DNA from: Cinnamomum chago
Taxonomy: Eukaryota > Streptophyta > Magnoliopsida > Laurales > Lauraceae
Assembly (NCBI GenBank): GCA_038049695.1
Contig: CP142452.1
Location: forward strand, 76,454,501 to 76,518,500
Direction: 5' to 3'
DNA: 64,000 nt
Part shown: positions 12,554 through 63,902 of the stretch, one piece after another
Position numbering within the stretch: the stretch's first letter is position 1
How the letters are laid out: every line of letters starts with the position of its first letter
Made by a program: the position numbers and the translations under genes
The notes under the pieces: generated by a model
The model's database searches: none
What the model was told of the DNA's origin: nothing
Seen by the model: the letters and a program-made list of their open reading frames with translations, nothing else

Positions 12554-12773
12554 CAAACACACTGTTTATTGGGTTCATGGCGGCCTGGTTCTTTGCAGCT
12601 TCTCCAATGAGACGCTGTTTGTCTGTGAATGCTACGTATGAAGGCGTTGTGCGATTTCCTTGATCGTTTGTTATTATCTCAACTCGTTCATGCTGTGAAA
12701 GCCAAACACCAACGCATGAATATGTCGTACCGAGATCAATGCCTATTGCAATACCTTTGCCTTCACCCTCCAT
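12554..12773 (-). CDS. HSP70 (cytosolic type) exon 1, N-terminal 73 residues
   Basis: Starts at the ATG on 12773 and encodes 73 residues plus one base. The HSP70 signature [13 protein letters not shown], which binds ATP phosphates, is at residues 12-24, followed by [14 protein letters not shown] and LIGEAAKNQ. After VF the frame ends in G followed by GTAAGG (donor at 12553), a phase-1 junction. This is where plant cytosolic HSC70 genes carry their single intron, so the split codon should be completed by an exon starting AT/AC followed by ~KRLIGRR. The chaperone's ATPase domain would continue in exon 2, which should lie at lower coordinates, but none is seen between here and position 1. The only exon 2 in the window is at 62260-63902, upstream on this strand, so it cannot belong to this copy in normal order. 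It is either the first exon of a gene with an intron longer than 12.5 kb that contains the gypsy element, or an orphan exon. Confidence 0.85.
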
Positions 12774-12840
12774 CTAGTACTTGCAAATGGTAGATCTGAA
12801 ATTCCAAAGTAGATTAGAAGAATGGAATGAATGGCAATTA

Positions 12841-12878
12841 AATAATAATAATAATAATAACAACAACAACAACAACAA
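12841..12878. repeat. (AAT)n(AAC)n compound microsatellite
   Basis: About seven AAT units run directly into about six AAC units. It lies 70-100 bases upstream of the HSP70 exon 1 start codon, in its likely 5' UTR or core promoter. Confidence 0.9.
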
Positions 12879-13089
12879 AGAGAGATACCAACGTAAGCTA
12901 GAGTCTCCATTGGCATATGTTATAAAGGTTTTTCCGATATTCAAACTCACAGTTTCTTAAAATTCTCTAAGTCCAGTTGGATATCTACGTCTAGCAATTA
13001 ATTACATTAAACAAATCTACATCAACTCACTCAAGAATCTAGAAGAACTACATAATCTTTCGAAAGCAATTGTATTACTAAGAAAAGGA

Positions 13090-13114
13090 ATATATATATA
13101 TATATATATATATA
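13090..13114. repeat. (TA)n microsatellite
   Basis: Perfect TA run of about 25 bp. Confidence 0.9.
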
Positions 13115-14614
13115 GTGAGCGGACAGCAAGCCCTGTCCACTAACGCAAGAGACGAGGGCGATGTATGTATGTTTGTATGTATGTGTGTATTGCCAAATCT
13201 TCGGCCCACCTGATGATCCATTTTAATTATATGGTAAACCACCGTTTAAGTCCCCCTTGGATCATTTTAGTTATACGGTCCATCAAAATGTCAACAATTT
13301 GGGTTAAAAAAAATGTCAGCAATTTCCTTATTAACAACAAAATATACACACAATAGAGGAAAGAAAATCAATTACCAATTTTCTCAAACCAACTTATGCT
13401 TTTGTTATGTAATTTAAAATTTTGAATACTTAGATATGCTCTGAATGACCACATTTATGAAAGAATAAATACATGGCATCACTGATTCAACCATGCTCAA
13501 ACATGACTCACATGATGGAATTCGAGGTGCTGGGACTTCGGGGTGTGATAGAAACTAACCCATTTAATTCAGCTAATTTAACTAATTTAATTAATGGAAT
13601 TAAAGCAGGAAAATGAAGTACTGATGCAAGTGCAAGTAAAACTGAGGTGAATCTTAACGAAGTATTACTTGCACTCTGACAGAAAATACAGGCATTAGAA
13701 GGGATCACCCCCTCATCATTGACTAACACGGTTGCAATACAGGATCATCGATTCATATGGTGTCTACATCCTTGACTAGCTTTTCATGGCTTATTAATTC
13801 AAATGCTCTGGGAATTAGTGGAGTGGCATAAGGCATGGGTTTGCTTTCCACATCTTGTGTTTGAAACCATCCCATATTTCCCCAATGTACTGTTGGGTCA
13901 AAGACCTCAAGGATGACCACATCATGAAAAAAGAAAAGTGTAACGGACCATATGACATGTATGCATGCGGTATTTAAGACATGGCTCTTCCCCTGGGAGC
14001 ATCTGCGTTGGAGATGGGAATTATACACTAGTTGTAGGTAAAGGAACAAAAAATCTTTTCCCCAAAGTTGTCTGTCTTCTTTATTACATGTGCCTAAATC
14101 AACTCATAATTTGGCCTCTTTTAATACCATAACCAAATTGAAATGTCACGCCTTCCCCTTTTTTATGTGTTTTTTGGATCTGGAGATAGGACGGACCATT
14201 GGTGGTGGCCTGAGCACGACAGTCTATATCACGTTGATCCAGTTTTGAAGTCTCTGTCAGACTTCCAGTCACTACCAAGTACAGAAGATGTTATAAAGAA
14301 GGATATTAGAAGTCATATTAAAAATTCTAAATATGAGATTTGTAAGCTTTCAAAAGTGTAGGGATTCATACCGAACTAGCAACAACGAAAAGAATCAAGT
14401 TCTTCTTTCTTTAATACGGAGTAATGTTTGGTATACTCCATCTGCTACAGTTTTTGGCCATAGGTTTTGTGTCTTTTACAGATGATGCATCTAAGTTGCT
14501 GGTTAGTTCAATAGTATTGCTGATAATAATGCTGTGAAGCATAAAAGTGAAGTTGCTGGTTGTTGAATGAAATGGTAAAGGTTGCTGGTAATGTTATAAA
14601 ATCGAATGAAGATC

Positions 14615-14745
14615 CATTATAGGTTACTTGTATTAAAGATCAAGCTGACAATTTCGTCACAAAAGTAGGTATACTTACATGTTGTTTATTTCAAACTGGG
14701 CATGATAAATATCCATGAACCAGCTTGAGGGGGAGTCTTGAGAAA
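14615..14745 (+). pseudogene. Copia retrotransposon relic, C-terminal end of pol
   Basis: Broken frames read CIKDQADNFVTK and then, after a frameshift, KLGMINIHEPA followed by a stop and GGGGGAGTCTTGA. This matches the usual end of plant Ty1/copia pol (the DQLADIFTK and KLGM-I-HAPA region) and the purine tract that precedes a 3' LTR. It is heavily decayed and no clear LTR follows. Confidence 0.6.
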
Positions 14746-14780
14746 CAGCTAGGGACTTGTTTGTAAATTTCCAAGTATGC

Positions 14781-15417
14781 TACTCTATGGAAGCCCTGGT
14801 TGGAAAGAAATAATAGAATCTATCGAAATAAAGTAAGTCAGTGGAGGAAGTTGTTGATTCAATTATTTGGTATGTTTCAAAATGGGCGAGTAGAAGAAAG
14901 GACTGTGCTGGGGTCCCTTTCGAAGATCTTAATAGATCTTGGTTAGCAGTTGTTTAGGGGGGTTGGTGTGCTAAACCCGTGTTTCAAGTTTTTTGGGAGT
15001 CCCCTCCAGTGGGAGTTCTTAAACTAAATTTTGATGGAAGTTTTGTTAAGCCTAATCAAGGAGGTATTGGAAGCATTATTAGGGATTGTAATAATATTGT
15101 TTTGAGGAGTTATTCAGGACCTGCCGATTCTTCAAATGCTAACGAGTCTGAAGTTTTTGCTCCTCATTGGATGTCGTGAGTTACGAAGATTGGGTGGTTC
15201 CAAAGCTATTATAGAAGGTGATTCTTTTTCTGCAATTCAGTGGGGTTCTAGGAAGTCTTCTTTTCCTTAGAGTTTGGCGGATTAGGTAAAGAAAATTCAA
15301 AATATTTCGAGACAGTTGGGTGCTTCTTTTAGTCATGTTTTAAGATAGGCAAATGCTATGGCGGATGCTCTAGCTAAGGAAGGAGTTCTTTGCTCTTCAA
15401 TTTCTTTTGATGTATAA
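14781..15417 (+). pseudogene. L1-type LINE relic, RNase H domain
   Basis: Plus-strand remains of the C-terminal part of a plant L1 ORF2. The text ERNNRIYRNK near 14800 is typical of the segment before RNase H. The RNase H domain begins PPVGVLKLNFDGSFVKP near 15005, continues GGIGSIIRD, then shifts frame at about 15170 and continues SKAIIEGDSFSAIQWG and ANAMADALAKEGV with stop codons inside. The 3' tail appears to continue to about 15525 and to resume after 22380, because an RTE element sits inside it. Non-functional. Confidence 0.75.
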
Positions 15418-15525
15418 TTGCTTTCTATTTTAGTAGCTATTTTGTTGTTTGTTGTTTGTTCATTTATTTTTCTCTTGGTTGTTCTTGGTTTTGACTTGTT
15501 TTTTCTAGAGCAGTAAATCTTACCA

Positions 15526-18500
15526 CTCATCATCATCATCAAAGCCTTGTCCCAACTAACTATGTTGGGGTCAGTTATACGAATTCTATTTCTCCATTAT
15601 GATCTATCTTGAACCAAATCCTCAGATAAGTTAAACTTCTTATATATATTTTTACTACCTCCATTCACATCCTCTTTGGCGTACCCATTCCCCTTGGTGG
15701 ACAATCAACCTTCATAGTCAAACTTTTCATTATCGGTGCCGTTGCTGGCCTACGTTGGACATGTCCAAACCATCTCAAATGGGTTTCTCTAATTTTATCC
15801 CCTATTGTTGCTACCCCTAAATGCTCTCGAAAACGCTCATTTCTAATTTTTTGTTCATAGTTTTACCACATATTTTCATCTATGTTACATCCATTTTGTG
15901 CATATGTCGCTTCTTCATTGGCCAACATTCTACTCCATAGGTCATAGGTGGTCTAATCATTGTCCTTTAGAATTTTTCCTTCAATCTTGTTGGCATTCGT
16001 CGGTCACAAAGCACTCCAGAAACAAGTCTCCACTTCAACCATCCCACTTTTATCCTATGTTCGACATCTTCATCAATCTCTCCATCTTTACTAATTATAG
16101 AGTCAAGGTAACAGAAAGAATCACTTTGTAGTATCTAATGGTCTTTAATTCTTACGGTAGGTTCAGCTCTTCTATATGCCCACTAAAGTTGCAATCCATA
16201 TATTCCGTCTTTTTACGGCTTATTTTAAAGCCTTTGGATTCTAAAGCCTCCCACCATATCTTAAGTTTTGCAATAACACCATCTCTTGACTCATTTACCA
16301 ACACAATATCATCTATAAATAACATACACGAAGGTACCTCTTCTTGAATATGAGCAGTTAACTCATCCATATTCAGTGCAAAGAGATAAAGGCTTAGGGC
16401 TGACCCCTGATGCAAACCTATGTTCACTGAGAACTCCCATCTCTCCTCAAGTAGTTCTTACACTTGTTATTGCTCCTTCATACATGTCTTGAATAATTTC
16501 AATATAACCTCTTGAAACATTCCTTTTATTTAAAACCAACTGAATCAAATCTCTAGGTATCCTATCTTAAGCCTTTTCTAGATCGATGAAGACCATATAC
16601 AAATTTTTCCTCTTCGCTAGATATTTTTCCATTAATTGCCCAAGTAAGAAGATAACTTCCATCGCTGACCCCCCGGTATAAAACCAAATTGATTTTCAAA
16701 TATCTTGGTCCTCTGTCTAAGTCTTTGCTCTATTACTCTCTCCCGTAGCTTCATAGTATGACTTATAAGTTTAATTCCATGATAGTTGGTACAATTTTAT
16801 ATATATATATAGGTACTACAACACTTCTCTTTTCACTCAGCATTTTCTTTGTTATTAATATCTTATTGAAGAGTCTAGTTAACCAAATCTCCCTAACTTC
16901 TCCTAAGCATTTCCAAGCCTCAATTGGAATGTCATTTGGACCCGTAGCCTTTCATGTCTTCTTTTGTATTAATGCTTTCCTTACTTCCACCACCCTAATT
17001 CTACTAAAAAAAGTATGCTTTGCTAATGAAGTAGTCATTGCTCTTAATACATTTGACATGATCTAAGTCCTTTCTTTTCCTTTCTCTTATTTTTACAAGC
17101 TGAAAAATATTATTCTCTCCTTCTCTTGTTCCCAACCTATTATATAGGTCATCATATGCTTTGTTCTTTGCATAACGTTTTCTCTTATTTTTACAAGCTG
17201 AAAAATATTATTCTCTCCTTCTCTTGTTCCCAACCTATTATATAGGTCATCATATGCTTTGTTCTTTGCATAACGTACTACTTTCTTAGCTTCTTTCTTT
17301 ACCTTGTACATCTCATAGTTTTCCATATTTATAGTACCCCGTCAAACTTTGTAACGTTTCTTCTCCTGAATAGCTTCCTGAACTTCTACACTCTACCACT
17401 AGCTTTCTTTATTATCGTGCCTCTTCCCTTTCGACTCTCCAAGCACCTCTTTAGCAACCTTCCTAATATAGTTAGTCATTTGATTCCAAGTCGCTGTAGT
17501 TTCTCCTTCAAAACTCCATTCTCCCTCATTAATCACTTTATCCTTAACGATTGTCGTTCATTCTCCTTTCAAATCCCTCCACCTTGTTTTAGGGCACATT
17601 TTATTTACTACCCTTCTCTTTCTACTTCTAATGCAAATATATAAAACTACTAGCCTATGTTGCGTGGTCAAACCCTCTCTTGGAATAACCTTATAATCTT
17701 TACAATCGAATCGGTCGTGTTTTCTAACTAGAAAAAAATCTATCTGGCACTTGCCAATTCCACTTTTATAATTAATTAAATGCTCCTCTTTTTAAAGCAA
17801 GTGTTTCTATTACAAGGTTAAATGTTAATGTAAAGTCCAAGATAGTGTCTCCTAACTCATTATTTTCTCCAAACCCTTGTCCTCCATGCACTCTCTCATC
17901 TCCTCTATTATCCTTTCCTACATGCCCATTTAAGTACCCTCTTAGTTTGGCACTTTACTAACATAGTAAAAGTCAAGTAAATCCCTTATTTTTCAGACAA
18001 GATGTCACATCAAAAGCACTTTAATTCAAAACTCCCTCCATCTTTTTCAAAAAAAGTAAAAAAACAACCACCTTTATCCACTAAAATACAAAAAAAAAAA
18101 TCCACTTTCCCATACAAAAAGACAAAGATTCCATAACAAACAACTAAAAACAAAATACTATCATAACCCACTTATATTTTATTCTTTCTTCAAAATCAAC
18201 TTTACTTCACTTGACTCTATTAGTAGAGTTGCCAAATTGGCCCTTAGGAAAGTCTTTTCACTAGTTGGAACTTCTCGTAGTAAATCATCCGTCTCCTCCC
18301 AAAATTGGCTCTTGACACTTTCATCTAATCCTACTTGGAGAGCATTTGCACTAATGATATGAATTATGTCTTCCTTTAATACTAGTTTAATTGTTAGAAT
18401 TCTATCACCTAATCCCGTTACCCCTACAATTTTCTCTTTCAAATCCTTATCTACAGGCTATACTCACTCCATTTCTTGTGTTGTTCTTTCCTGCATAAAA

Positions 18501-18530
18501 AATTTTATAACCATCATCAAGCTCCTTAGA
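15526..18530 (-). pseudogene. Decayed RTE endonuclease/reverse transcriptase ORF, main part
   Basis: Minus-strand coding remains read from high to low coordinates. The apurinic-type endonuclease lies at about 18530-18180 (YKIFYAGKNN, GLGDRILTIKLV), followed by the spacer region near 17330-17090 (KVKKEAKKVVRYAKNKAYDDLYNRLGT). The reverse transcriptase includes GLHQGSALS and LFIDDIVLV (catalytic box, normally FADD) near 16430-16150, then KTEYMDCNFS. The endonuclease N-terminus is displaced to 22368-22253 by the LTR insertion. Several frames and stops show that it is dead. The endonuclease part of such elements is often misnamed 'craniofacial development protein 2' in plant annotation. Confidence 0.8.
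17083..17278. repeat. 98-bp tandem duplication inside the RTE relic
   Basis: 17083-17180 and 17181-17278 are almost identical (both contain TTACAAGCTGAAAAATATTA and both end CATAACG). The duplicated segment encodes part of the spacer between endonuclease and RT, so it arose after insertion or in the source copy. Confidence 0.9.
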
Positions 18531-20529
18531 CTTATTGTAACGCCCCAATTCCGGATACCGATATACTCGTTCGAATACCCGAAATTGGCGCGCTACTTCC
18601 CGGAAAATCCGAGAACTTCCAAGATCGTAGGCCGCAGTGAGGTCCAATTTAAAACTTTTTGACCAACATAGTTATAACATTTAAATTGCGGAAGCATAAC
18701 GATTTAAACAAAGCGGAAGCAATAGGTATCGATGTATATATATATTAAGTATGAGCGGAACATCAGTCTAATTTAAAATGATTCAATGTTAATCAAAGTT
18801 ACACATTCGAATTCTACCAATCTCACTACAAAATTTCACTCCGAAACCCAAACAAAAGAGTCCCTCAAAACCCGTGTAGATACTCCTCGCCCTCCGGCTC
18901 GACATCCGTGTCGGCCGGGCCCCATGCGTACTCTCCTGCAACCGGTGCCTCCACTAGGGCTAATGCATCGTCTGGGATCTCGGGATCAAGGCCTAAGCAC
19001 CAATGAATGGGTCAGATCTAAACGATCTGGCAAGTTACAGCATACTACTAACATAGAACATATATATCAAAGGGAGTAAAGACAGGTATAAAATTTAAAT
19101 GAATAGCAAGGGAAATGAACTAAGCAGGTATGCATTTAAATCATAAGGAATCGAGATAAATAGAAACATCTACACTACTGTAAACAAAGTGGCACATTCA
19201 CACGAGCTGGAATACCGCGGGATATTATGCCGCGGCCCTCCCATACTGAACACAGTTGCGGCGGGGAAATCTCACCAGGGAATAACTAATCCCGAATATC
19301 ACTCATCAACTCATCATCTCATCACTCCAGATCGGCACGGTATGACACCTTGCCGTCTTAACCACACAGCTCATCATGATAGCTTCACCATACTCAACTA
19401 GCTCCTACCAGGGATGATCAGTCCACAGGCTGAGCTTAAATCAACCGAGTGAATGTTCATGCCGACTCGAGAATAACTCTAAGGTCTGTGTCTGTCTAGG
19501 CTTTGCCTTGCGTGAACAAGGTCCTAACAATACCTCTATAAGGTCCACACATCTCAATTCAGTCTCTGGATCTCATTCAAGATCCAGGCCCACTCGTTGG
19601 ATCCATACCAAGGCCCATCAGTACATGGCCTGGTCTAAAACCGTCCAAACGAGGCAACCAATCCATCTACTACTGACAAACAGTTCCATTATAATCCATA
19701 TAACTTAACAGTCCAATAGAAACTATCTCTTCAAGCTAAAGGGTTCACATCACCACACTTAGGCCCAATAAGGGCCCGCCTAGACACAGACACGGGTCAA
19801 TGATCTCCGAAATCACATCATCGGGTCACCTCTAGATACCCTAGGTTCAGGTCTTCCAATTATGATTAATTAACGGTAAACAGCTAAACTAAAGATCTAA
19901 GAATGACAGAGTAATAATAATGAAGTATAAACTTCAATCAGAGAATCAACGGGAAAAGCAACGGTCCAATCCTAGGTAAATGGGCCACTTTAGGTTCGGG
20001 TCTATCTCCGGTAATTCGATCTCTAAACGATGTCATTAATGCCGTAAAATATTGTATTTGGTGCTTAGTTAGTTAATGGCATCTATGACAACTCTTGGAG
20101 GTCGAATCATCTTAGATTATCAACCAAAACTCTAAACAGTGGTCCCCGCGAGTCAAGGTTGAGCCACACCGTTGACTCGGGCTTAGGACACTGACAAATA
20201 CTCATTTGGATGGTCAATGGGCCCCACAACTGATCATATCTCCTAAGTGTTGAAAACTGGAACAATCAGGGTTTTCCAGGTGAACCTGATGTGTTGTGAG
20301 CTCGGTTGATTTCCTGGCCGGGAAGATCAACCGAGTGCACCGACAAACCTGAGTCAGGCTTCCTGGATAACTTAGATCGTTTCTAAAGGTTTCCAGCGTG
20401 TCCGGTCAAACACCTGGCCTGGGTGATTGACCGCATACACCAAAAACCCTAGAAAGATGGATGTCCCAGCTTTAAACATTTTCTACTGTAAATCCTAAGT
20501 ATCAGGTCATCTTTTCCATGAAATTTCAG

Positions 20530-21107
20530 TCACTGAGCTCGGTCCTGTACTGAGCTCGGCCATGCACTGGTCTCGGCCATGCACTGCACTGCACTGGTCT
20601 CGGCCATGCACTGCACTGCACTGGTTTTCGGCCATGCACTGCACTGCACTGGTTTCGGCCATGCACTGCACTGGTCTAGGCCATGCACAGCACTGCACTG
20701 GTCTCGGCCATGCACTGCACTGCACTGGTCTCGGCCATGCACTGCACTGCACTGGTTTCGGCCATGCACTGCACTGCACTGGTTTCGGCCATGCACTGCA
20801 CTGGTCTCGGCCATGCACTGCACTGCACTGGTCTCGGCCATGCACTGCACTGGTCTAGGCCATGCACTGCACTGCACTGGTCTCGGCCATGCACTGCACT
20901 GCACTGGTTTTCGGCCATGCACTGCACTGCACTGGTTTCGGCCATGCACTGCACTGGTCTAGGCCATGCACTGCACTGCACTGGTCTCGGCCATGTACTG
21001 CACTGGTCTAGGCCATGCACTGAGCTCGGTCCTGCACTGGTCTCGGCATGCACTGATCTCGGCCATACACTGGTCTCGGCCATACACTGGTCTCGGCCAT
21101 GCACTGA
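20530..21107. repeat. 27-bp minisatellite (CTGCA-stuttered) inside the solo LTR
   Basis: Roughly 20 units built from TCTCGGCCATGCACTG followed by one to three CTGCA/CACTG stutters. Full units are 27 bp; shorter units of about 22 bp have lost one or more stutters, and variants have TTTTCGG or TCTAGG. Because 27 is a multiple of three, several frames on both strands stay open and read as MHCTALVSA-type or QCSAVHGRD-type repeats. These are not genes. Confidence 0.92.
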
Positions 21108-21834
21108 GACCAGTTTTCAGGTTTTCTCCATTTCAACCCGTTTTTCCACCAAATCACTTCCAATCAGTCCCAAACTTCACCAAATCATCTCCAAACATCA
21201 AATAACTCTAATGCCCATTAATTGACAACCTTGTGGCCCATTGATCTTCCAAATGGGGGGTGAAACCCCCATCCATCAATGCCAATCCATCCCATAAACA
21301 AACGACTAAGCTCAGGTAGAGTTTCTATGACTAATTAGTGACAATCATGAAATCAAACTACAGAAATCAAAGGAAAGACAACATATATTCTAAGTTAACA
21401 GTAAGATGCACTTGCCTTTTAGCTTGAGAGAGAGATTTGTAGAGAGAAAGAGCAATAGAAGAGAACCCAGCTGAACCAGAGGAAGTGAAGAAGAAGATAA
21501 CCCAGCTGCTGTAGCAGTGGCCCCAGCACACAGTAATCTCAGAAATGAGGGAAATGAGGGAGAGGAAGTGAAGAGAAGGTGTAGTGGCTGTAGCAGCTCT
21601 AAGGAGAACTCAGCACAGCAGAGGAGGAGGACACTTGCAGTAGCTTCAAGACTCCTCCCGGCACAAGGTCAGTAGCTTAGGTGAGGAAGGAGAATGAAAG
21701 AGGAAGAAGGAAGATGTAGCAGTGGTTGCCTCAGCCCAAACGTAGGAGAGGAAATGGGAAGGGAAGTAGTTGGGGGCTGGTAGTTTTCTTGGGAAGGGGG
21801 CTGAGCTTAGGTTTAGGGTTTTGGGGACAAGAGA

Positions 21835-21844
21835 GGTTTTATAG
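21835..21844 (-). promoter_or_regulatory. Candidate TATA box of the solo LTR
   Basis: CTATAAAACC on the minus strand, about 410 bp into the LTR when read in its inferred orientation. It is followed by a pyrimidine-rich leader, as expected for a U3 promoter. Confidence 0.4.
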
Positions 21845-21869
21845 TTTTAAGGGGGTTGACTAATGACTA

Positions 21870-21917
21870 GTTTAGCCTTAGGGTTTAGTGGGATTAGGGT
21901 TAGGGTTTGAGGGTAGG
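21870..21917. repeat. Degenerate telomere-like (TTTAGGG) stretch
   Basis: Several imperfect TTAGGG/TTTAGGG units (CTTAGGG, GATTAGGG, GTTAGGG, GTTTGAGGG) inside the solo LTR. It is too short and irregular to be an interstitial telomere; more likely a telo-box-like promoter feature or chance. Confidence 0.4.
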
Positions 21918-22489
21918 CTTGTCCTTTGGTTAGGAATCTTCTAGAAGAGCACCTTTGCACTAACCCACTTAATTAACTTAATTAGACTCAACTAATGACC
22001 AAATCTAGCTCTAAAAGCCTAGGATTGACTCAAAACCCTTTTCTAATTAAAAGTAAACCCAACTAAGCTAGTCTAACCAAAAACTTAGGAGAATCTAACC
22101 AATCTCTCTAATCAACCCCTAATTAGCCCAATTAAATAGCGATTAGTAGTAATTAGCAAAGATTAGTAGTAATTAGCATAATTAACCAATAATTAGCATA
22201 AATTAGTCTATAAAATAGCCTTTAGAGGGCCCACCAAGGGTGGGTCCTCACACTTATCCCCCTTCCACTTTGTCTCCTGTAGACTGGCTACACTAATTCT
22301 CCTTCTTTTCATTACCTCAACTAACTCCATGCTCTTGCCAGTCAAGGTTCCTATATTCCAAGTAGCAATAAATCTTACCATTATAAGATAAAATTCTAAT
22401 AGTTATAAACCAAATTATAATTATGGAAGACATTGGTGAGGAGGAATTTCATGATTTCTGGAGGACTCACTACAACAAATCGGATTTTC

Positions 22490-23110
22490 AGCGACGAAAA
22501 TATTTGCGACGCAACCCAAAGCGTCGCAAAAAATAAATTTTTTGCAACATAAAATTAGACCCGTCGCAACAAGTTAAGTATTTGCGACACACGACTCTAT
22601 GCGTCGCAAATAGAAACTTTCAGCAATGAATATAGTGCGTTGCAAAAAAATGCGTCACAAAATCATTGGCGCCAAATGGCGGTAAAATTATTCGCCACGC
22701 TAGATACACATTTGCGACACAATCATCTGTCGTAAATAAGTGTATCTATTAGCGACGCAATCCCCGCGTCGCAAATAACTTTTAGTCTGAGCTATGTCGT
22801 AAAAAGTTAAAGGTTTTTGCAACAGTTTCTTTTTTTCGTCGCGCATAATATCTTATTCGCGACACTGATGTTTTTTTGTCGCAAATAATTATTATTAGCG
22901 ACCTCCATCATATGGTGTCACAAAAAATTTAAACTAAGAAAAAGAACTAATTTCTTCCCTAGCTATCATTATGGAAAAAAAAATTATACATTTATTTGGG
23001 ACGCAATTTTGACGTCGCAAATAATAATTTTTTGCTACAGTATATTTACTGTGTCGCAGATAATAAGTTTTTTTGCGACATGTATTTAAATGCGTCGAAA
23101 AAAATATTTT
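22490..23110. repeat. Left subterminal repeat array of the CACTA element
   Basis: Many copies, in both orientations, of a motif around TTTGCGACGC and GCGTCGCAAA, with decayed forms (TTTGCGACAC, TGTCGCAAA). In En/Spm such subterminal motifs bind the accessory protein and are needed for transposition. The loss of CpG in many copies looks like methylation-driven decay. Confidence 0.88.
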
Positions 23111-24415
23111 TACGAGGGACATTATATTTACTAGAGACATTGCACGAGAGACATTAGACTTGCAATTCTGTCCCGCGCGCTTTTTTCTTTTTATTTTTTC
23201 AGTCGATGCCCGCCTCTTTAACAGTGTTTTATAAACGCTTCTTTCTATTCTTCCCTTTCCCTCCATCTCTGCGTTTCTGTTATTCCCTCCATCCCTGCGC
23301 TTCTATTCTTCCCTCCATCTCTGCGCTTCACTCTCTATCTCTCTGCCCTAAATCCAACTCTCTATCTCTCTGCCCTAAATCCAAACAGCCCAGATTTGGT
23401 CGACGATCCTCTACAAGACGATAGAGAAATCCGTCCCAATCTCCTTTCTTTTTACCTCCCTCTCTACGCTTCAATCTCTGCCTATCTCTCTGCCATAAAT
23501 CCAAACCAAAGCCAAGATCCCGTCGACGATCCTCTACAAGACAACAGAGAAATCTGTCCCAATCTGGAGGTATATATATATACATTCATTCTAAATCTCT
23601 ATGTTTTTTTTTATCTCCCATACATCCAAACGTGTCCTACCGTTCGATTTCATTGTTCTATGTGCGCCTTTCTTCTTCAGGTCTTCTTTACATTCGTTTC
23701 TGGTTTTGGGACCAGCGGCTGCTACTTGTGGAGGAGTCTTCATTCGTTTTCTTCTTTAAAGCAGCGGTGACTGAAGAGGTTCGATCTCTTCCTCTTCTTT
23801 TTTTTTTTTAATCTGTTGAGATTTCTTTCCATGTTTGTATTTTGAATTTTCTTTATTCTGAATTTGAACAATGGAGATCTTGATTTGAATTTTTTTTTTT
23901 TTAACCATTTGAACTTTGGATTGTTTACTCTAAATTTGGGCAATGGAGATCTTGATTTTTTTGTTTTTGCAGGGTTTAAGTGGGGTTTATGAATAGATCT
24001 GGATCATATGTGGTGGGTCTTTTTTTATTTATTTAATGATTTTTGGTTTTTTGTTGGGTATTAGGATTTTAGTTTTTTTTTTTTTTTTGGCGTTTTTCAA
24101 TATGAGTGTTTGGCTATGTGGAGACTGCTTAGTATTATTTTGTGCTTCATAGATATGTTGATTTTGATAGGATTGTTAGTTATTGTGGGTTTAGGGGGGG
24201 AGTTTGTATACTGTTCTAGGAGTTATTGGATTGGGATTTAATATTTCTTCTCTTTATTGCTTGTAAGTGTTGGAAATATGGTTGTCATGATGGGTTTTTT
24301 TTTTATATTATTATTAAGGATTTCAATTGGAGTTGGGTTTTGGTTGTGTGTGTGTGTGTGTTTTCTCCCCCCTTTTCTATTAGTTGGATGTATGGAGATT
24401 TGGTTGGAGTGATGG

Positions 24416-24477
<62 letters not shown>

Positions 24478-33371: not shown

Positions 33372-33374
<3 letters not shown>

Positions 33375-33418: not shown

Positions 33419-33421
<3 letters not shown>

Positions 33422-49400: not shown

Positions 49401-49703
49401 TTGTTTGTAGGTTAGAGTAAAATGAAATAAAATTGAGTATTGAATCAAGAGAAAAAAGGAAGTGAAGAGAGGTCGGAGTAACATTGTATTTTTTTCATAT
49501 TGTGCTTTTTAAGAATATTTTTTTTGTTATTTTATGTCTTTTAAGAAAATATTTTTTTGCTTTCTACTTTTTAAGAATGTTTTTTTTCGTTTTGTGCCTT
49601 TTAAAGGTACTATTTGTATCATTTTGTGCTTTTACAGCCAACTCCATCTACCTTTTTTTCTTCTTTTGATTAAACACTTAATCTTATTTCATTTTACTCT
49701 CCT
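49401..49703. mobile_element. MITE in duplication copy A
   Basis: Inverted ends TTGTTTGTAG...AGAGTAAAATGAAATAAAAT and ATTTCATTTTACTCT near 49685. The inside is made of ~35-bp imperfect repeats of CATTTTGTGCTTTTTAAGAA type (49490-49640). The homologous copy is at 55337-55645, so it was inserted before the segmental duplication. Confidence 0.65.
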
Positions 49704-51961: not shown

Positions 51962-51969
51962 TTGGGTCG

Positions 51970-53959
51970 TGTGTAAGTCAAAATGCAGAAGACATGATCA
52001 TCACTCATCTCAGTCAATCCCTCTACTCTCTGCAGGTTACTTTACCTCTTTAAAAAATTATCGAAGCAGCGGAAAGGTAAAGAAAATGATTGTAATAACA
52101 GTGCTTTCTCTTCGGGACAACGGAGACTTGGAAGCTGGGTAATATAATATGTAGCAATGTCAGGTAACACTCAGTTAGGGATCAAATGGGCCGGGCCAGC
52201 ATAGCAAGGAGCGGCATGGACCGGTCAGGTCAACGGCAAAGCCCGGCAGGCGTGGCATGGACGATCAGTCCTCTATTGTTACATTGGATTTCAAGAGTTT
52301 TTTTTTTTTTAACATGTGATTCTTGCACATATGTAAATTCTACGAAACAAATGTATAAATACAATTATTTCACATGGGTGATAATTATATATGTGAAATG
52401 CCGCAAACAAACAACCCATAATTAATGAAGAGGAGGAATTTGAAAGATTTTAATGATTGGTAGATTTATGCAAACAAAAAAACTAGCACCATCTGTGAGG
52501 TCACTCGAAATCCTTTGGGCCTTCTCTCTCTCTCCCTCTCTTTTTTTTGGCTTTGATTGGACTTGTCACTGGTGGTAAAAGAGTGCTGCTCAGCGTGAGG
52601 ACTAGGGGGATCGATCCCTAGTTTCTCCGAAACTACAAATGCCTTGGCCTTGGCCGCTTTGTTTGCCTAAAATAGATAGGATTGGAATACACAGTATATC
52701 ATGGTGAAACAAGCTCCATCGCAGATTATTAAAGAAGTGAGATATGAATGATAGGAGGTGAGGGTAGCTGGCATAAGGTGGAGATATAGATTAGACCTTG
52801 ACTTTTCAGGGTGTTTAATACTAGGGTAATGGCTAGGCATTCATTTCCTATCTTCCTATTATTTAATTTCCACTAAACAGAGGTAAATCGATTGTAATTT
52901 TTAATCATTCATCTTTGGTTCTTTATTTCTAACCACTTATAGAAATACAGTTATAGGTATTCAATTACATGGACAAAACAGACCCTTGATTCTTGTGGAT
53001 TTCTTAATATCAGGAGAAAAACCTGAAGTATTTGAAAATATTAAAAAAAAATAGTGCAAACCATATTTGTCCAGACGAGTCTGATCCCCATGGAGAACAC
53101 TGTAACAATGCATCAACTCCATCGTGGGGCCCACACAGAGGTAATCAAGATCGCTCAAGATGAGTCCCATCTCCTCCGGTGCCATATCCTCAAATCTCAT
53201 TTTAATAGTAGTGGGTCCGGCTGTAAGATTGAATGCGTGATTGATAATGTGATCAGATTCTGATGTGGTTTGTGTTCCTTATGTGGCATTCATCGTGGTC
53301 CCATCATGTGCTCAATTGGAGCAAAGGGACCTACTCCCATTGATCAAACTGTAATTTAGGGGGAGGGATGAGATTCATCTTAAACAGTCCAGATTATCTT
53401 TACATGGCACTATGATGGAGATCCCGGCATCTCCTGCATGTTTCCGAGTAATAGCTTTAACAGGGAATCCAGACTTGTCCAAACAGGGAGGTTTGTGGCA
53501 CCGATTGTCACTTCAGCCGCATCCAAAGTTCTCACTTTTTAAAGTTCGCATTGCTTCGGTCGTATGCGAGTCAAGATGCAGTACTCAAGGGTTGCAAATT
53601 GGGTCGGGCCGGCCTGGCACCAAAAAACCTGAGCTATGGGCCGGCACAACACGTTGACAGCATTGATCGGGCCGGGTCAGCCCGATGCTAACCAAATTAA
53701 GGATGGACCGTGCTGGGCCAGGGTCCCTGGGTCGAGGCAAGGTACGGCCCGACACAACATTTTACATAAAAAAAGGCATATGTTTTTATATAAATAAAAT
53801 ATAAACAGTAAAATGATTAAAATATTATTTTTTATTTGTAAATCATCATCAATATTTGTGCATTTATTTTAATAATCTCAACTTTATTTGTGTATAAAAT
53901 CTCTTTCGATTTATATAGGAGATTTTAAGAAAAATTAAAGAAATTAGAACTTGAATATT
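51970..53959. other. Non-coding DNA with degenerate module copies and GC-rich repeat
   Basis: 52000-52150 and 53000-53600 look like decayed pieces of the local duplicated module. Two GC-rich stretches with GGGCCGGGCC and GGGTCGGGCCGGCCTGGCAC words (52180-52262 and 53605-53760) resemble a GGCCGG-rich repeat common in plant genomes. No gene recognised. Confidence 0.45.
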
Positions 53960-56630
53960 TTAGAAAGTGTAAGGATTTTCCACAATTCTTTCAATAAATC
54001 TTCTCCATAAAATATTTTTGAGGAATGATAAAAATATCCCTTTCTTTGCTATAGGCTTGTCTTTTATTTATTCTTTTCTTCCTAAAACAAGTTATTTTGA
54101 TTTTGGTGATCATAACCATTTAATGAAGCAAGTTTTTAGTAATTTGGAATCCCCTTTTTGTAATCATCCATGCATTATGACAGTTGAAGTGGGTCCGACT
54201 AAGTCATCTGAGTTGGACTTGATGATCATAACTATTTAATAAAGCTAGCTAGTTTTTTAATCATTTGGAATCTCCTTTTTAACCATCCTTGCATAGAGGT
54301 AGTTGGACTAGGCCTCCGAAGTCATGGACTTGATCGTTTCTCTCTAGTTTTTAAATGGTTTATAAAAGAAAATATATGAAAATTGATATGGGCATATTGT
54401 TGTCATTTCTCAAGATTTTTTTTTTTATGGAGAGGACTTGGGTGAAAGAATTATGGAGAACTTTTATATTTTTTTGAAATATTCAAATCTTTATGTATAT
54501 ATATATATTTTTTATAAGCCAAACTTTTTATATCTTTTTAAAATTTCCCCTAATATAAATGAAAGGGCGAAAAGAGAAAGATAGCTCAATAGGAGACTCA
54601 CCATGGGAGATGAGTAATCTAATATCGAGCAAAATGTCGCAATGGCCAGAGATTTTGAGAGCAGAAAGTATGGCTGCCATTGTACAATGCCATTTTTTTC
54701 TCTAAAATGTTGTTTTGTGGATAGTTTCAGAATTGAGACCGCATCCTCTGTGATAGCTACACAGGACAGTGTAACGCATGCATGGAAATCCGTCATCGGG
54801 CCTATATAAAGATAATTCAGATGGTTAGCGATGAATGTCATCCCCACTAGTGATGCATCCTTAAATTTCAATTCAAAAGAGATGGATCCCACCATACAAT
54901 TCAACCATGACAGTTAAGCTTGATTAAACTTGATTAACACCTGTTAGCAGCGGTCCCTTGTCAGCACCTAATCACATTTTCATCATATGCTCAATCGGGC
55001 AGTGGAACCACTAAATAAAGATAGTGGGATCCACTCCTATTGATCTGAATCTCAATGGTTTATCACTGGAGGGGATGGGATTAATCTTGGACAGGACGAG
55101 ATTAATCTTGAACGGCTCAAATTATGTGCGGACTTATGGATGGATTGCCACGCATGTTTGTAAAAGTTGCGAGAGGGGATCCAACTCCTCAAAACTTCTT
55201 TTCTTTGTCTCCGATAAGGTAATTCTAAACGAAAGAATTTAAACTTTTTCATATCGAAAAGTCTATAACATCTATCCGACATCACTAAAATGGTTAATCC
55301 TGAATGCATGAGTAGAATACTAGGATTCTAGGCCTATTTGTTTGTAGAGTAGAGTAAAATGAAATAAAATTGAGTATCAAATCGAGAAAATAGAAAGTAA
55401 AGAGAATTGACTAAAATCTCCTTTCCTCCTTTTGTGCTTTTTAAGAAATTCTTTTTTTATCATTTTGTGCTGTTTAAAAGTACTTTATTGTCATTTTGTG
55501 CCTTTTAAAAATACGTTAGTCATTTTTATCCTTTTAAAAAGTTTTTTTTTTTCATTTTGTGATTTCACAACTAATTCCTTCTGCACCTTTTTTCTTTTGA
55601 TTTGACACTTAATTTTATTTCATTTTACTCTACCCTACAAACAAACATGTGTCTCACTCAGGGGATTCTTGAGTTAAAGAAGTGAAACTCCTTAGTGGAT
55701 CCCACCTGTCAAGATCCAAGTCACACAAATGGAAGCATTCTCCATCATATCATCACAAGGATCTTAACACCTTTGAGTGTAATGATTCTAGAAGGTATTA
55801 CAATTTTAAGCTTAATCTAACATGAGTGGCAAATGGATGAATGTCAAGTTTGGATCAATTGTAATTCAAAGGAGATGATGTGTGTGAGAAGGTAATTTGA
55901 CCGCACGTGGGCAAACAGCTCCACAAAATTAGGGAAGTAAATGGGTTGGTTCTAGCCAGAACCATACTAGACTCAGTACTAGAATTGTTTCTAAATGACG
56001 ATTTCAGTTCTACCTGTAATTCCACCTCTGAATATATCTTGTTACTTCCAGGCCCAATTACATATTTTTCATTTTTCATTTGCTTATATCATGGGATAGT
56101 CCCATAAGGTTTATCAGTTTATGTGAGATGGGATTTACAACAAGAAAGTCTAAAAACAAAATGTTAGATTAGAATCAGACGACTTTTGGGACATTATTTG
56201 AATTTCAGTCATGAAATTAGAAAAATAGAGTTTATCGAGGACTATTATCTCAAAACTCTAAAAATGTAACGATCATCTCCCTCCCGGAGGTGTAAGAGTG
56301 CAGGATTTGTCTTTATGGCAAGCTGCATTGACGCACCCTTATTGTTGTTCTTCAAAGACTGCATATACAAGAATGAAAAGCAGGAGAAAAAACATTCTTC
56401 CCTGAGTCACTAAAGCATCTACAGTTCATCCCCATCATTTTCTTTTCTAGATCATTCCAATCAAAGGATTATGAATTAACAGCAACTGAGTATGCAAATA
56501 ACTAACACAACCAAAACAACACCCACCACTTCTAGAAACTATTTTTTTTTTTTTTTTTTTGTATTCTCTGGCTTTTCCAAGTCATATGTGCTTTGAGAGA
56601 GAACACAGAGATGTGGCCCACCAATTAAAA
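53960..56630. repeat. Local segmental duplication, copy B
   Basis: Partner of 47030-50990 in the same orientation. It contains the second copy of the MITE and, near 54415, the undisturbed target site (CAAGATTTTTTTTTTTATGG) into which the foldback element inserted in copy A. No protein was recognised. Confidence 0.75.
55337..55645. mobile_element. MITE in duplication copy B
   Basis: Inverted ends TTTGTTTGTAGAGTAGAGTA and, on the other strand, TTTGTTTGTAGGGTAGAGTA, continuing AAATGAAATAAAATT on both sides for about 40 bp. Internal CATTTTGTGCTTTTTAA-type repeats match the copy at 49401-49703. The TSD is not certain. Confidence 0.75.
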
Positions 56631-58204
56631 ATCGAAGCCGCTTGCTCAAAATGAATCCCCTCTCCTTTTGGATTATCCTAACCACCTTGATTTGTGACAT
56701 TCGATTTTAATGATTTTAAAAAACACATTTTTTTTTTTTTGGATTTTAATTCAACATAAAGTGATTGGATGAGTATCAAAAGTTGGACTTATAGCAACTT
56801 ATAGGGGTATTGTACGTGGGGTAATTCGATTTTTGATGGGCAAAACTGTAGCTAAGAAAGCAGAATGGTTCACCACCTCCCCATGATGGGTATGGCCCCA
56901 AGTGGAACCCAGAGAGCTGTCACTCATATGGTTGTCTCTTTAGGAAAGGGTGGCCCATGCATACATATACATATATGGTCCTAATCGGGTGTGGATTACT
57001 TGCACAAGATACTATATGGGCTATGGCCAGTCTTACCAATATCCTTAAGTGGGCCTACTGATCGAGGACCCTACATACATCTTATAAAGCGCTTTTTTAT
57101 AGACTTTGTCTATTTAAATTTATATGATCCTGATGGAAGATCAAAATGAACAAGATTTGAATTCTTAGATTATTAATTTTGATATTCCATCATGTGGACC
57201 ATATTTAAATGGACAATATTCTAAAAGATCATGTGATTGGATGCATATGTAGGACCGTACCTCAGTGGGCTCCCTATAATAATTTGTTGAAACTAAAGGT
57301 CCAGACAATCATTTTATTTTTCAAATCCTTACTATCCTAGGAAAAAGTGCCCTATATACCTACTGATTGCAAAGGCTTTGATCTTGACCAATACAGCATT
57401 CCAAACTGTGTTCTAAAACCATGCTCCTGACAAAGCCCATACCAAGTGCAACCATTTTGAACGTGGACACCTGTTCTTTTCTTTCTATTTTATTCCACTT
57501 ATTTCATCTGAATCATCTGAATGAAGGCCACGTTTTGGATGGTTAGGATCAAACCGCTGTGGGCCTCTAATGACCATTGGCCCCTGTTGTTCATGCTACT
57601 GCATAGGCAGAGGAATGAGGATGCTCTGAGGAGAAACTTTATAACCCATCTCGTGGGCCTCGCATGCATGTCATCATCAGAGGGGTAAAACATCAACATG
57701 TGGATGGGGGACGTAAGATATTGTCTGGTCATAAGTTATTAGCCCTTCATTGTGGGACCTCTTGTAATAAAATAAACCTTTTATAATGACTATTAGGGCC
57801 TGTTTGACTGTTTTTCATTTTAATAAAATACATATAAATTAAATACATAGGATTGGGACAATTTATGGCACGAGTGGTTAAAAGTTAAAGACAAAAGATA
57901 AATATCCAAAAAAACCTATCAAATAATTTCCTCTTTTATAGAAATTGGGAAGATGGGAAATAAGTTCCCAATCATCACCTAGTAATTCAATAATACTTAT
58001 GAGTTATGACAGTCAAGATCTCATCTACATCTCTGTTTTTTTCTCCTTTCCTATACTCCTTATCCTTCAAACTTCACCTCTTTAAAAATCCTTTTAGCTC
58101 ATTCGACGTTGAATCTGAATGCTTCCAATTTCTATGTAATCTAATATAAACAAAAGGGTCCTTCTTGGTTCGAGCCAAATTGTTTTTTTCTTAATATGAA
58201 GAAA

Positions 58205-58245
<41 letters not shown>

Positions 58246-61200
58246 GCATGCCCCATTTGGAAAAAGGAGATTCTTTAACATTGGTAGTGTAGTGGCAACC
58301 CCCACCAATGTGTATGGAATTTGTGATACTAAAATTTCCTCCACGAACATGGATCTAGTAGGAGAGAGACAGGGAGAGGGCGGGCAAAGGTCGGAGGTGG
58401 GAGTCGAGAGAGCTGGCCAAGCAGAGAGAGGGAAGGAGAGGGGTATTTTGAAAAAGTCCTGGACGAATCCACGAGGGGTCCCATGAATGGACGTGCAGGG
58501 AGCAACAAGGGAGGTACAAATAGCAGCTCCCTAAAACTCAAAATTAGTCATTACTCTTATTTTCATGATACTGATTGGGTATAAAACAAAGGAACATCAA
58601 TTCCTTCCACCCAAGCAATTTTACTACACCCCAGATGCAGATAGCTATCCAGACATAAACTTTTAAAGGTAGAGGAAGAGAAGGAAGAAAGTGCTAGAGG
58701 TGTAGAGATGGAAGAAATAAGATGGGTACGTGCCTATTTTGCTGGTGGAGATTATGGATATGGATGGAGGAGCTGTGGTCGCCGGCCCAAGCTGTGGAAC
58801 GAGGAGAAGATGAAAGGGTGTTTTGGGCCAGGGTCTTGATCAGGGTTTGTGTTTGGGACTCTTTCTATTTGTGAAGAGACCCCTGTCTTATCCTCTTATT
58901 GTGCTATAAAAAGGAGGAGGTGACGGCATTGGGTGGCACAGCGGAATCGATGACCTGCAATTGACACATGAACAAACACACAAATCCACATAATCAAGAA
59001 GATGAAGGCAATCATATACGTGGTTCGGTAAAACCGCTTATATTTATGGGAAAAGATCACATCAATTCCTCTATCTATTATGTAATTCTTTGTGCTCAGG
59101 GTAAGGGCTGCACATACAACAAAATATATAACATGGCTGAAAGACCAAATTGCCATCAAATCCTAGATGGCTAACTCATATATTAATCTGATTAACCCTG
59201 GAATATAAGACAAACCCAGTATACTGTAAATCTATCAAAAGGGTCAGGTTGCAATGAGTCCTTAACCCACCCTAGTATATGCGGGCCGAGTATAAGTCAA
59301 CCAAAATCCCTTGGCATCTTAGGCATGCTTACAATACCTTGGCCTTTACGTTACCGTTTAAGGAGGGCGAGGGCCAGGGAGAGGCTAGGGTAAAAGGAAC
59401 GAAAGAACTTAATTAAATCCAAAAACACCATTGGTCCGAGATCAAATTGACTAAATAAATATTCACCTAAGAAAAGGGGATAAAAGTTGATGATACTCTA
59501 TATTGTCTTTTCCTATATTCCCTTGTTTTGTGCATAGACCCTCAAAAACCTCTGATGAGTATAGTGCCCAAGAAGGTTCCAATTGGCACAATTTAATAAA
59601 GCCCATCTGCCTCTGGTGTGCGTGGATCCACCCTACTATGATGTGTATCTAAGCTTGTATTCGAGTTTAAAACACCAAATCCAGAGGCTGGAAATAGGTT
59701 CCCCATTGCGAAATAGATTAGGGGCGGTTCTTTAGACCCAACCTCAAGAATCAAAACCATTTATTAGAACCCTCTCCTCGTCAAATAGCGAAGGCTTTTT
59801 AATACACCATTGAATAGTATAGATGCGGAAAAAAGATGTCATTGAGCGCCTCATATATCTTGTTGGATTTCTGCAAAAAGGGATGAAAAACTTGACAGAT
59901 CATTGTATGTTCTTACTCGTTTTCGATCCAATGGGCCTTCCGTTAATTCAAAGGGGGTAAAGGAGAAAAGTAGACCTTACATTGTAGGTTCGGAGGGGTT
60001 ACGGTAGATTATAATACTGCAGTAAATGACATAGGGATATATTTCATATAACTAGTAAAAGAGCTGAATATTAGTTTAATGTTCATAACAGGAAACAAAA
60101 GAGTAACCCTTTAGGGCCCAAATCTGGACTAAAATCTGAAGTTGGAATAGAGCACAATACAATATAATTAATAATTGCATTTAGATTATATATATATATA
60201 TATATTATATTTAATAGAGAACTGGAATAGGGCACAATACAATACAATAATGGCGTAGCGGAAGCATGAAAAGAAACGGACGAAGGAAGAAGATCTCCGT
60301 CTTCAACCTAATATCAACACCTTGACTCCACAAGGAAGAGATAGGAAAACCCTAAATGAAACCGCAATTCGTATTATTCCTTAAAAGAAGCATTACATTA
60401 CTTTTATAGTCCCAAAACCCTAAATTACATGAAATAACAAACTTACTAAAAATCGTGAAAAAATAAAAAATTTACATCAAAGCCTCTTAACCATCCCTAA
60501 ATAACTTTCTACCTTCTAAAAAGACTCAAGCTCAAACGGACTAAAAAAAATCCCCCTAAAATATGAAAAAAAAAACCCTTACTGTAAATAGTAACTTTTA
60601 CACAAAAACTGCGTTTTGACCTTCAAAAGAGTATAATTTGGCCTTCGATGACTCCAACCGCCAATTGCAGTTGTCGAGCACGTCGTCGATAACTTCAAAA
60701 CACATGGTTATGGGGCCCGTAACGATATTCGGATCAAAAGTTATGGTCGTTTGAAGTCGACATTATAGATTTAACATTCCGTCTTGACTTCTTCCCATCT
60801 TCTTGTTCTAGAAGTGTTTCTGCGATTTGTTCTACATCAGTTAGGTTAAGCTCTATCTCGGCTCTCAAGGTCTCGGGCTTTTCAAAATTGGGCCCTACCC
60901 TACCCTCAAGCTTGAGATCAAGAAGAAAAGCAATCATCTTTGCGGGTTTTGGCGGGCGTGGTTGGACCCCCTTATCAAAGGTCCAAATTGACAGCCCTAG
61001 TGATAAGGGAGTAACACAGAGAATTCAAATTCTAGTGTCCGGGCCCCTCGAAATAAACATCACATTGGAAGGACTTGAGTTTTACTAGTTCAGATTTAAA
61101 TAATAATAATATTTTATTATTATTATTATTATGGCTTCGACCATTCAGATATGTAATACCTAAGATTTAACAAGGTGATAGATTGACAAAGGGTTGGATT

Positions 61201-61411
61201 TGACCTTGTGCCCAGAAAACCGCTCCCATACCCACCGCTAATCGGGTCAGGTTGTCTCCTATTTGAAATGAACCATTGCTATCCCTATTACACAGGTCCA
61301 AACATGCACCCCCACCATCAATGATGACGGGGAATGCTTTTCCACTGTGCCAAGCATTCCACACCGTCCATCCTTCACGAATCAAGACTGTTATTTGGAT
61401 AATACTAAAGG
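56631..61411. other. Long non-coding stretch
   Basis: No gene recognised on either strand. It holds a (CT)n run at 58207-58243 and a possible half-MITE starting GGGCCTGTTTGACTG near 57797. LTR-like text near 59020 (GTGGTTCGGTAAAACCGC) and 60240-60780 hints at decayed copia elements. There is also a (TA)n run near 60188 flanked by two copies of GCACAATACAATA. A frame at 60734-60937 (minus) has protein-like composition but no recognised family. Confidence 0.45.
58207..58243. repeat. (CT)n microsatellite
   Basis: Perfect CT run of about 37 bp. Confidence 0.95.
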
Positions 61412-61563
61412 TCATGGATGGTAACTCAACTGTAGATCAGCTGGTTAGGGAGTTAGAACACAAGTGTGTGAGTGGACCCTCAACTGTGCTGGTTGGGGAG
61501 TTGGGACACAAGTGTGTGAGTGGAGTGCCTGAGTTCAAATCCTGATTGGCCAAAAAAAAAAAA
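61412..61563 (+). mobile_element. tRNA-type SINE with internal duplication
   Basis: Contains GAGTTCAAATCC, a good RNA polymerase III B box, an A-box-like AGCTGGTTAGGGAG upstream, and an A-rich 3' end. The part with CTGGTTAGGGAGTTAGAACA is repeated 48 bp later as CTGGTTGGGGAGTTGGGACA, so the head is duplicated. The TSD is not clear. Confidence 0.62.
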
Positions 61564-62259
61564 GACCTTAAAAAAAAAAAGAAAACATGGCCATCTCATA
61601 ATCAAAATCCTAGGCCAGAGTCTGCTTTGGTTCATCATCAATCATGATATCATCAACGCTGGCACACAACTAAGAATAGAAGCTTGCGCAATGAAGTCAC
61701 TCTTGTTCAAGATTCATGGCATGAAGATGCCCTGTGCATTTATCCTCTAGTCATGGATCATCACTTAACTCAAGGTGTCTGCAGTTTGTCCGCTCATGCA
61801 GATATTCTAAAATGTTCTACAGAGATTAGGCAATTCCTTTAATAAAACCCACATTTGAATATTAGCAATGGAATGGATCTTTTTTCCCCCGTCTGATGGA
61901 AATTAGATGAAACAGAGGAATCACAAAAACCAAACAGATTACCATAGCAGAAAGACAGACCCAGACCCAGAGACAGCATACAGCCTCTAGTTTTAAGCTA
62001 GGATCCATACTGAGTGACAGTTACAAGGGCACACCCAGACCCAGAGACAGCATACAGCCTCTAGTTTTAAGCTAGGATCCATACTGAGTGACAGTTACAA
62101 GGGCACAGTTATCAACTTACTAAGCTGCATCATTGCAGCCAAATCTTGCATTTATCAGTTGGCCAACTAATCAGATAAACTGTCTTGAACAATGAAGAAG
62201 CTCACATTCTTAGAAGCACAATGAGAAAAAAAAGTACAAAAACTATCAGATTTCAAACA
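61564..62259. other. 3' flank of the HSP70 exon 2 copy
   Basis: Downstream of the minus-strand HSP70 stop codon; the proximal part should be its 3' UTR. It holds a perfect 74-bp tandem duplication (61959-62106). No other gene seen. Confidence 0.5.
61959..62106. repeat. Perfect 74-bp tandem duplication
   Basis: 61959-62032 and 62033-62106 appear identical (both run from ACCCAGACCCAGAGACAGCA to ACAAGGGCAC). They lie 150-300 bp past the HSP70 stop codon, probably in its 3' UTR. Identity suggests a very recent event or an assembly stutter. Confidence 0.92.
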
Positions 62260-63902
62260 TCATTCAAGAGGGATATTGGAAATGATAGCATCGCAGAGGA
62301 TCTCCAACTCTCTTTTTTCATGAAGAAGCTCATCAGCATCTGCAAGCTCATTGTCGTCTAACCATTCATTCATCTGTTTGATGGCATCCTCTATCCTCAT
62401 CTTGTCCACAGTGGACAACTTAGAACCAATCTTATCACCATTGATAGACTTCCTCATTTCATAGGCGTAGTCCTCCAGAGCATTCCTGGCCTGCACTTTC
62501 TGCTTGAATTGCTGATCCTCCGACTTGTACTTTTCTGCATCCTGGAGCATCCTCTCAATTTCCTGTTGGCTTAGACTATGCCCATCGGTGCTGATAGTTA
62601 TCTCACTCTTCTTCCCTGTCATTTTATGCACCGCAGAGACAGTCAGGATACCATTGACGTCAATTTCGAAGCAAATATTGACAGGTTCACCTTTAGGAGC
62701 AGGAGGGATGCCGAAAAACTTGAATCTTCCCAACAGGTTGTTGTCCTTTGATCTTGTTCTTTCGCCTTGGTAGACCAAAATATCCATGGAGGGTTGGTTA
62801 TCTATACCTGTAACGAAATTTTTATCCATCTCGGTGGGAATCGATGTATTCCTTGGAATCACAATTGTCATCTGTTCTCCTTTGGTCTCCACCCCAAGTG
62901 AGAGGGGTGTGACATCCACTATCACCATATCCTTCACCTTCTTATTGCCCATACCGCTCAATTTGGCAGCCTGTACAGCAGCACCATAGGCAACTGCCTC
63001 ATCAGGGTTGATGCTCTTGCAAAGCTCCTTTCCATTGAAGAAGTCCTGCAGTAATCTTTGAACTTTGGGAATCCTGGTTGACCCGCCCACAAGGACAACA
63101 TCGTGAATAGAGCTCTTATCCATCTTGGCATCCTTCAAGCAGTTTTCAACAAGATCCAAGCAATTTCTGAAGAGATCCATGTTCAGCTCCTCAAACCTGG
63201 CACGAGTTAAAATTGAGTAAAAGTCGATTCCCTCATACAAACAGTCAATTCCAATAGTGGTCTGGGCCATGGATGAGAGGGTCCTCTTTGCCCTTTCACA
63301 TGATGTCCTCAATCTTCTTATGGCTCTTGGGTTTCCACTGATATCCTTCTTATGCTTCCTCTTGAATTCCCGAATTAAGTGGTTCGCTAGACGATTGTCA
63401 AAGTCCTCCCCACCAAGGTGGGTGTCGCCTGCAATCGCCTTCACCTCCAACTTACCTTCCTTGATAGTGAGAACAGAAATATCAAATGTACCGCCACCAA
63501 GGTCAAAAATGAGAACATTCTTCTCAACAGCGCTGCCGGCATTCCTTTCCAGGTCATAGGCAATGGCAGCAGCGGTGGGCTCATTGATGATACGCATAAC
63601 ATTGAGCCCTGCAATGAGGCCGGCGTCCTTGGTAGACTGGCGTTGTGCATCATTGAAGTAAGCAGGGACTGTGATCACAGCATTCTTCACTTCATAGCCC
63701 AGGTAGTCCTCTGCAATCTCTCGCATCTTATTGAGGACCATGGACGAGATCTCTTCTGCAGCAAACTGTTTTTCCTCGCCCTTGTATTCAACGATGATCA
63801 TGGGCTTATTATCTGAACCAGCAATGACTTTGAAGGGCCACAGTTCTATATCATTTTGTACGAAGATGTCATCAAATCTCCTACCTATCAATCGCTTCAC
63901 AT
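62260..63902 (-). CDS. HSP70 (cytosolic type) exon 2, C-terminally short
   Basis: Begins after the acceptor TTTGGCTTTAG (AG at 63904-63903) with AT, which completes a split GAT codon, then VKRLIGRR. It encodes 546 further residues to the stop at 62260. ATPase-domain signatures: [12 protein letters not shown] (about 63510-63475) and [14 protein letters not shown] (about 63100-63060). The linker-like [11 protein letters not shown] and the peptide-binding domain ([18 protein letters not shown]) follow, then the helical lid. The frame is intact. It stops at [11 protein letters not shown], about 30 residues short of normal; the usual GGMP-rich tail and EEVD, which dock TPR co-chaperones such as HOP and CHIP, are absent. 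Exon 1 must lie beyond 64000. The exon 1 at 12.6 kb is phase-compatible but downstream on this strand. Likely a cytosolic ATP-driven chaperone of unusual C-terminus. Confidence 0.92.

Follow-up and report, generated by a model that had tools for sequence, protein, structure and literature searches.

The window, the whole 64,000-nucleotide stretch of Cinnamomum chago DNA analysed here (C2:76454501-76518500 of an assembly of 1,061,006,199 bases in 14 contigs), carries two HSP70 exons, both on the minus strand. The left one is a first exon that runs from an ATG at 12773 to its final base at 12554 and is followed by the donor G/GTAAGG from 12553, and the right one is a second exon that runs from its first base at 63902 to a stop codon at 62262-62260, behind an acceptor TTTAG ending at 63903. 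An earlier sequence-only reading had given the exons these positions, this strand and these splice sites (12553 and 63903), all of which are borne out. The features of the window are as follows, with A and B denoting the two genes to which we assign the exons.

1..10187, plus strand: in-window part of an 11,569-base Ty3/gypsy LTR retrotransposon (LTRs, target-site duplication, Pfam)
3..5315, plus strand: gag-pol polyprotein frame of this element, which lies in intron A (open frame, Pfam)
1..12553, minus strand: portion of the 14,494-base intron A that falls in the window (intron measurement)
12554..12773, minus strand: exon 1 of gene A, 220 nt, or 73 codons plus one base (tblastn, Pfam, PDB match, exon similarity)
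12774..62259, no strand: spacer between genes A and B, with transposon sequence and no HSP70 found (open frames, Pfam, tblastn)
62260..63902, minus strand: exon 2 of gene B, whose 620-aa product lacks the EEVD tail (tblastn, Pfam, PDB match, exon similarity)
63903..64000, minus strand: acceptor-bearing end of the 6,652-base intron B that falls in the window (intron measurement)

Both exons match the HSP70 profile PF00012 well above its curated cut-off of 20.6 bits: exon 1 covers profile positions 1-63 (6.6e-25, 87.8 bits) and exon 2 positions 65-592 (1.5e-196, 654.6 bits). In matches to PDB sequences, the split codon corresponds to residue 70 of Chlamydomonas HSP70A, with exon 1 matched up to residue 69 and the match of exon 2 beginning with its second full codon, at residue 72. 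The ends of the two exons join in frame, the exons share a strand, and a tblastn search of the window with both as queries found no further HSP70 pieces (nothing else at E < 0.4). These observations suit the idea, which gave the sequence-only reading its title, that the exons of one gene lie in reversed order because a rearrangement has placed exon 2 some 50 kb upstream of the exon 1 that goes with it.

However, each exon has a partner of its own outside the window. We read 290 contiguous kb (C2:76340001-76630000), comprising the window and its flanks, the latter taken from the same assembly and identical to the window letter for letter where they overlap. For gene A, exon 2 is found beyond the left edge, on the same strand and across an intron of 14,494 bases; its tblastn match is C2:76452560-76450941, or roughly window -1940 to -3559. 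Exon 1 of gene B lies on the same strand to the right, at window 70774-70555 (C2:76525274-76525055), across an intron of 6,652 bases. The flanks had been proposed as the place to look for an exon 1 right of 64000 and an exon 2 left of position 1; both are present, and their order and orientation are right for a pair of tandem HSP70 genes truncated at the window edges, which was the first alternative that the sequence-only reading had offered.

The partners belong to a larger array. With both window exons as queries, tblastn at E 0.01 or better returned 10 exon-1 rows and 17 exon-2 rows over the 290 kb, the span to which all our exon 1 counts apply. The minus strand carries every exon-1 row (10/10) and all but two of the exon-2 rows (15/17); the two exceptions, on the plus strand, are short fragments. 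Eight exon 1s could be paired by position with a near-full-length exon 2, and these pairs include the full-length gene H, the stop-bearing gene A and g1; a shortened exon 1 at C2:76571001 pairs with a decayed exon 2 at C2:76566006. All eight near-full-length pairs have a G/GT donor and an AG/AT acceptor that split one and the same codon in phase 1, across introns of 1,278 to 18,899 bases (6.7, 14.5 and 18.9 kb in three of them). The phase-1 match between the two window exons is thus real, but since 8/8 pairs share this one junction, it cannot tell which exons belong together.

We consider it almost certain that the window's exons belong to two neighbouring HSP70 genes of a tandem cluster, both of which run on past a window edge, and that the arrangement is ordinary. 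The window crosses a minus-strand cluster in which two-exon cytosolic HSP70 genes are arranged head to tail; from left to right, each exon 2 is followed by the exon 1 of its gene and then by the exon 2 of the next. The 64 kb frame begins inside the long intron A and ends just beyond the acceptor of gene B, so that of A it catches exon 1 alone and of B exon 2 alone, which gives the appearance of reversed order. Introns A (14.5 kb) and B (6.7 kb) are presumably spliced normally.

The assignment of partners by position was compared with sequence similarity, using the nucleotide identities of exon 1 and of exon 2 over the eight pairs and the correlation between the two tables. In both exons the same genes are mutually nearest: A and D (94.1% in exon 1, 89.3% in exon 2), B and C (97.7% and 96.0%), and g2 and g3 (98.6% and 98.5%). 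Pairing by position gives a correlation of r = 0.941. Two of the 40,319 other pairings score slightly higher (0.9443 and 0.944), one with B and C swapped and one with B and C as well as g2 and g3 swapped; as these top-scoring alternatives exchange sister genes only, the correlation test cannot separate sisters, for example B from C. When A is given the exon 2 of B and B that of A, which is what a single gene made of the two window exons would amount to, r falls to 0.425. Thus exon 1 of A groups with D and exon 2 of B groups with C, the crossed pairing fits poorly (0.43 versus 0.94), and with both partners present outside the window, a single rearranged gene has next to no chance of being the right explanation.

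The position of gene A deserves separate consideration, as its exon 1 could in principle be an orphan left by a duplication, with the exon 2 to its left derived from a different exon 1 that has since been lost. Such a process does occur in the cluster. Some 84 kb beyond the left edge of the window lies an HSP70 exon 1 (C2:76369957-76370154; window -84543 to -84346) with an in-frame stop and 97.3% identity to exon 1 of g1, and the tblastn search of the 290 kb found no exon 2 for it before the next exon 1. It is within a tandem duplication with blocks 16.3-17.2 kb apart, the leftmost copied block of which begins in the intron of the neighbouring g1, so that exon 2 of g1 was left uncopied; the layout of these blocks indicates that this exon is a true orphan, from a duplication beginning within an intron. 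An orphan origin for exon 1 of A would also sit well with the state of A's exon 2, where one in-frame TGA at codon 204 leaves a reading of 276 residues, and because of this stop gene A is probably a pseudogene. Against it, exon 2 of A is nearest to that of D, just as exon 1 is, no other exon 1 was found between the two exons of A by tblastn over the 290 kb, and the element-free intron of A aligns with the intron of D over most of its length. We therefore hold the orphan origin to be very unlikely and retain A as a gene with both of its own exons.

One other candidate partner for exon 1 of A was considered and discarded, an exon 2-type fragment located between genes D and A at C2:76434799-76435650 (window -19701 to -18850), with nucleotide identities of 98.2% to exon 2 of C, 93.7% to that of B and 79.1% to that of A. 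It was matched over codons 22-305 only, it holds stops (four in one stretch read, one in another), and A's own exon 2 lies in between. The fragment is likely a recent partial copy.

Most of the length of intron A is made up by the 11.6 kb retrotransposon, which lies at C2:76453119-76464687 (window -1381 to 10187). Its 716-base LTRs differ at 2/716 positions, the 3' LTR being at 9472-10187, and the target-site duplication GTTAG flanks it on both sides, with the right copy at 10188-10192. Its Pfam matches are in the order gag, reverse transcriptase, RNase H and integrase; with an integrase-after-RT gag-pol, paired LTRs and a target-site duplication, it is a Ty3/gypsy element. Once the element and one 5-base GTTAG are taken away, 2,920 bases of intron A remain, compared with 2,653 in gene D, and the two introns align in three main blocks at 88.6-94.3% identity over most of the intron length. 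One of these blocks (19-737) spans the rejoined site at 559. Because the element-free intron aligns with that of D across this joined site, the element was most likely inserted after the split of A and D, and, by the identity of its LTRs, the insertion is most likely young. The element also carries a tandem repeat at 49-base spacing (window 5275-6407, 18 registered copies), just past the gag-pol frame and ahead of an antisense frame of 747 aa. This open frame of 747 codons, at 6619-8862 on the minus strand, had no Pfam match at E 0.001.

The spacer between genes A and B also contains transposon sequence. At 26236-29869 there are frames matching Transposase_21, DUF4218 and DUF4216 in Pfam, a set like that of CACTA-type DNA transposons, and at 16155-16457 there is a reverse-transcriptase fragment. 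A short-period tandem array (27 and related spacings) at 20499-21225 is open in several frames, and an inverted repeat at 47677-48243 has arms of 164 bases, 91% complementary and 239 bases apart.

Two further explanations concern the same geometry. Tandem clusters are repetitive, and copies as similar as those found here (up to 98.6%) are able to mislead assemblers; a misassembly had also been raised by the sequence-only reading. However, order and strand are regular over the 290 kb, the exon pairings are consistent with sequence similarity, the LTR element is flanked by two matching copies of its target-site duplication, and there is no N in the window, nor in the 70 kb flank-and-window stretches checked. 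As flanks and window come from one assembly, this case is not an independent one; even so, we regard misassembly as highly improbable. The other explanation, which the sequence-only reading had itself put forward as speculation, is a circular RNA in which back-splicing would link the 12553 donor with the 63903 acceptor. Its appeal is that of geometry, with a donor downstream and an acceptor upstream on one strand. Any neighbouring pair in a head-to-tail cluster of two-exon genes has this geometry, so there is nothing special about it here, and the circle would require about 50 kb of read-through past the end of gene B and the start of gene A. We give it hardly any credence. Neither rearrangement nor back-splicing is needed to account for the exon order, and two adjacent, window-cut genes remain our explanation.

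The products of genes B and C are 620 aa long and lack EEVD, and H, at about C2:76597360-76600658, encodes 648 aa ending in GPKIEEVD. We take H to be a canonical plant cytosolic HSC70. It has one intron, at the same codon as the window genes; B and C thus share the intron codon of the canonical gene but lack its EEVD tail. When B is aligned with H, using region limits set in this analysis, 319/385 positions are identical in the nucleotide-binding domain and 55/102 in SBD-alpha, and 29/38 positions of the C-terminus are gaps. Between B and C, dN is 0.020 and dS 0.114 (NG86), a ratio near 0.18 that fits with purifying selection. Gene B presumably works as an HSP70 lacking EEVD. The constraint appears less clear in g2 and g3 (dN 0.013, dS 0.023, NG86; ratio near 0.57) than in B and C.

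A genome listing of HSP70 profile matches gave at least 60 PF00012 rows (55 of 473 candidates scored), which are matches rather than genes. Among the 60 listed, 27 fall in C2 75.66-77.13 Mb, in groups of 16 (75.66-75.92 Mb), 9 (76.34-76.60 Mb) and 2 (near 77.1 Mb), and minus-strand matches flank the window to its left and right. The group at 75.66-75.92 Mb is on the plus strand in 16/16 listed matches, opposite to the window's group, and is possibly an inverted sister cluster.

These features resemble those of the T1 lineage, truncated cytosolic Hsp70s (cyHsp70T) without EEVD that form tandem clusters in Lauraceae (Chen et al. 2023, PMC10687569). As in that account, the HSP70s found here are of cytosolic type, mostly lack EEVD and stand in tandem, with eight minus-strand pairs holding a near-full-length exon 2 in 290 kb. 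The 27 of 60 listed rows on C2 recall Litsea cubeba, in which 24 T1 genes form a supercluster on chromosome II (PMC10687569). Average similarity to full-length cytosolic Hsp70, taken over 18 references, was above 69% for T1 and 48.7% for T2 (PMC10687569); g2, g3, D, B and C (5/5) are 70.9-73.0% identical to the single reference H. T1 Type II members have a deleted C-terminal domain and an atypical SBD-alpha, and in Arabidopsis, sunflower, peanut and Litsea cubeba T1 transcripts are reported to be at extremely low or barely detectable levels (PMC10687569). The cluster resembles the T1 tandem clusters already described for Lauraceae. It differs from the T1 account in the 6.7, 14.5 and 18.9 kb introns that follow a 73-codon exon 1, as we found no intron lengths in the parts of PMC10687569 drawn on here. 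Chromosome 2 of Phoebe bournei holds 25 of the 45 genes in its Hsp70 family, which includes 12 tandem pairs and in which only 13.3% of the genes have one intron (PMC12189233). The concentration on chromosome 2 and the tandem pairs are similar to what we describe, whereas exon pairing across long introns was not found discussed in the portions of that paper used here.

The exon arrangement is thus a window-edge effect in an already known type of tandem gene cluster. It serves as a warning that, in clusters of two-exon genes, a window that begins inside an intron can show seemingly reversed exons. More tentatively, and with somewhat less than even confidence, we propose that in T1 clusters the single conserved intron can grow to 6-19 kb and that gene-finding programs miss the 73-codon first exon as a result. 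Growth of the intron by retrotransposon insertion is shown here in one case, that of gene A. Among the matches listed in a literature search, judged by title or the opening of the abstract, none dealt with missed first exons of T1 genes. Given the long introns found here, we suggest that annotations of "N-terminally truncated" T1 HSP70s merit a re-check for a remote exon 1, as some of the genes so annotated may possess one.
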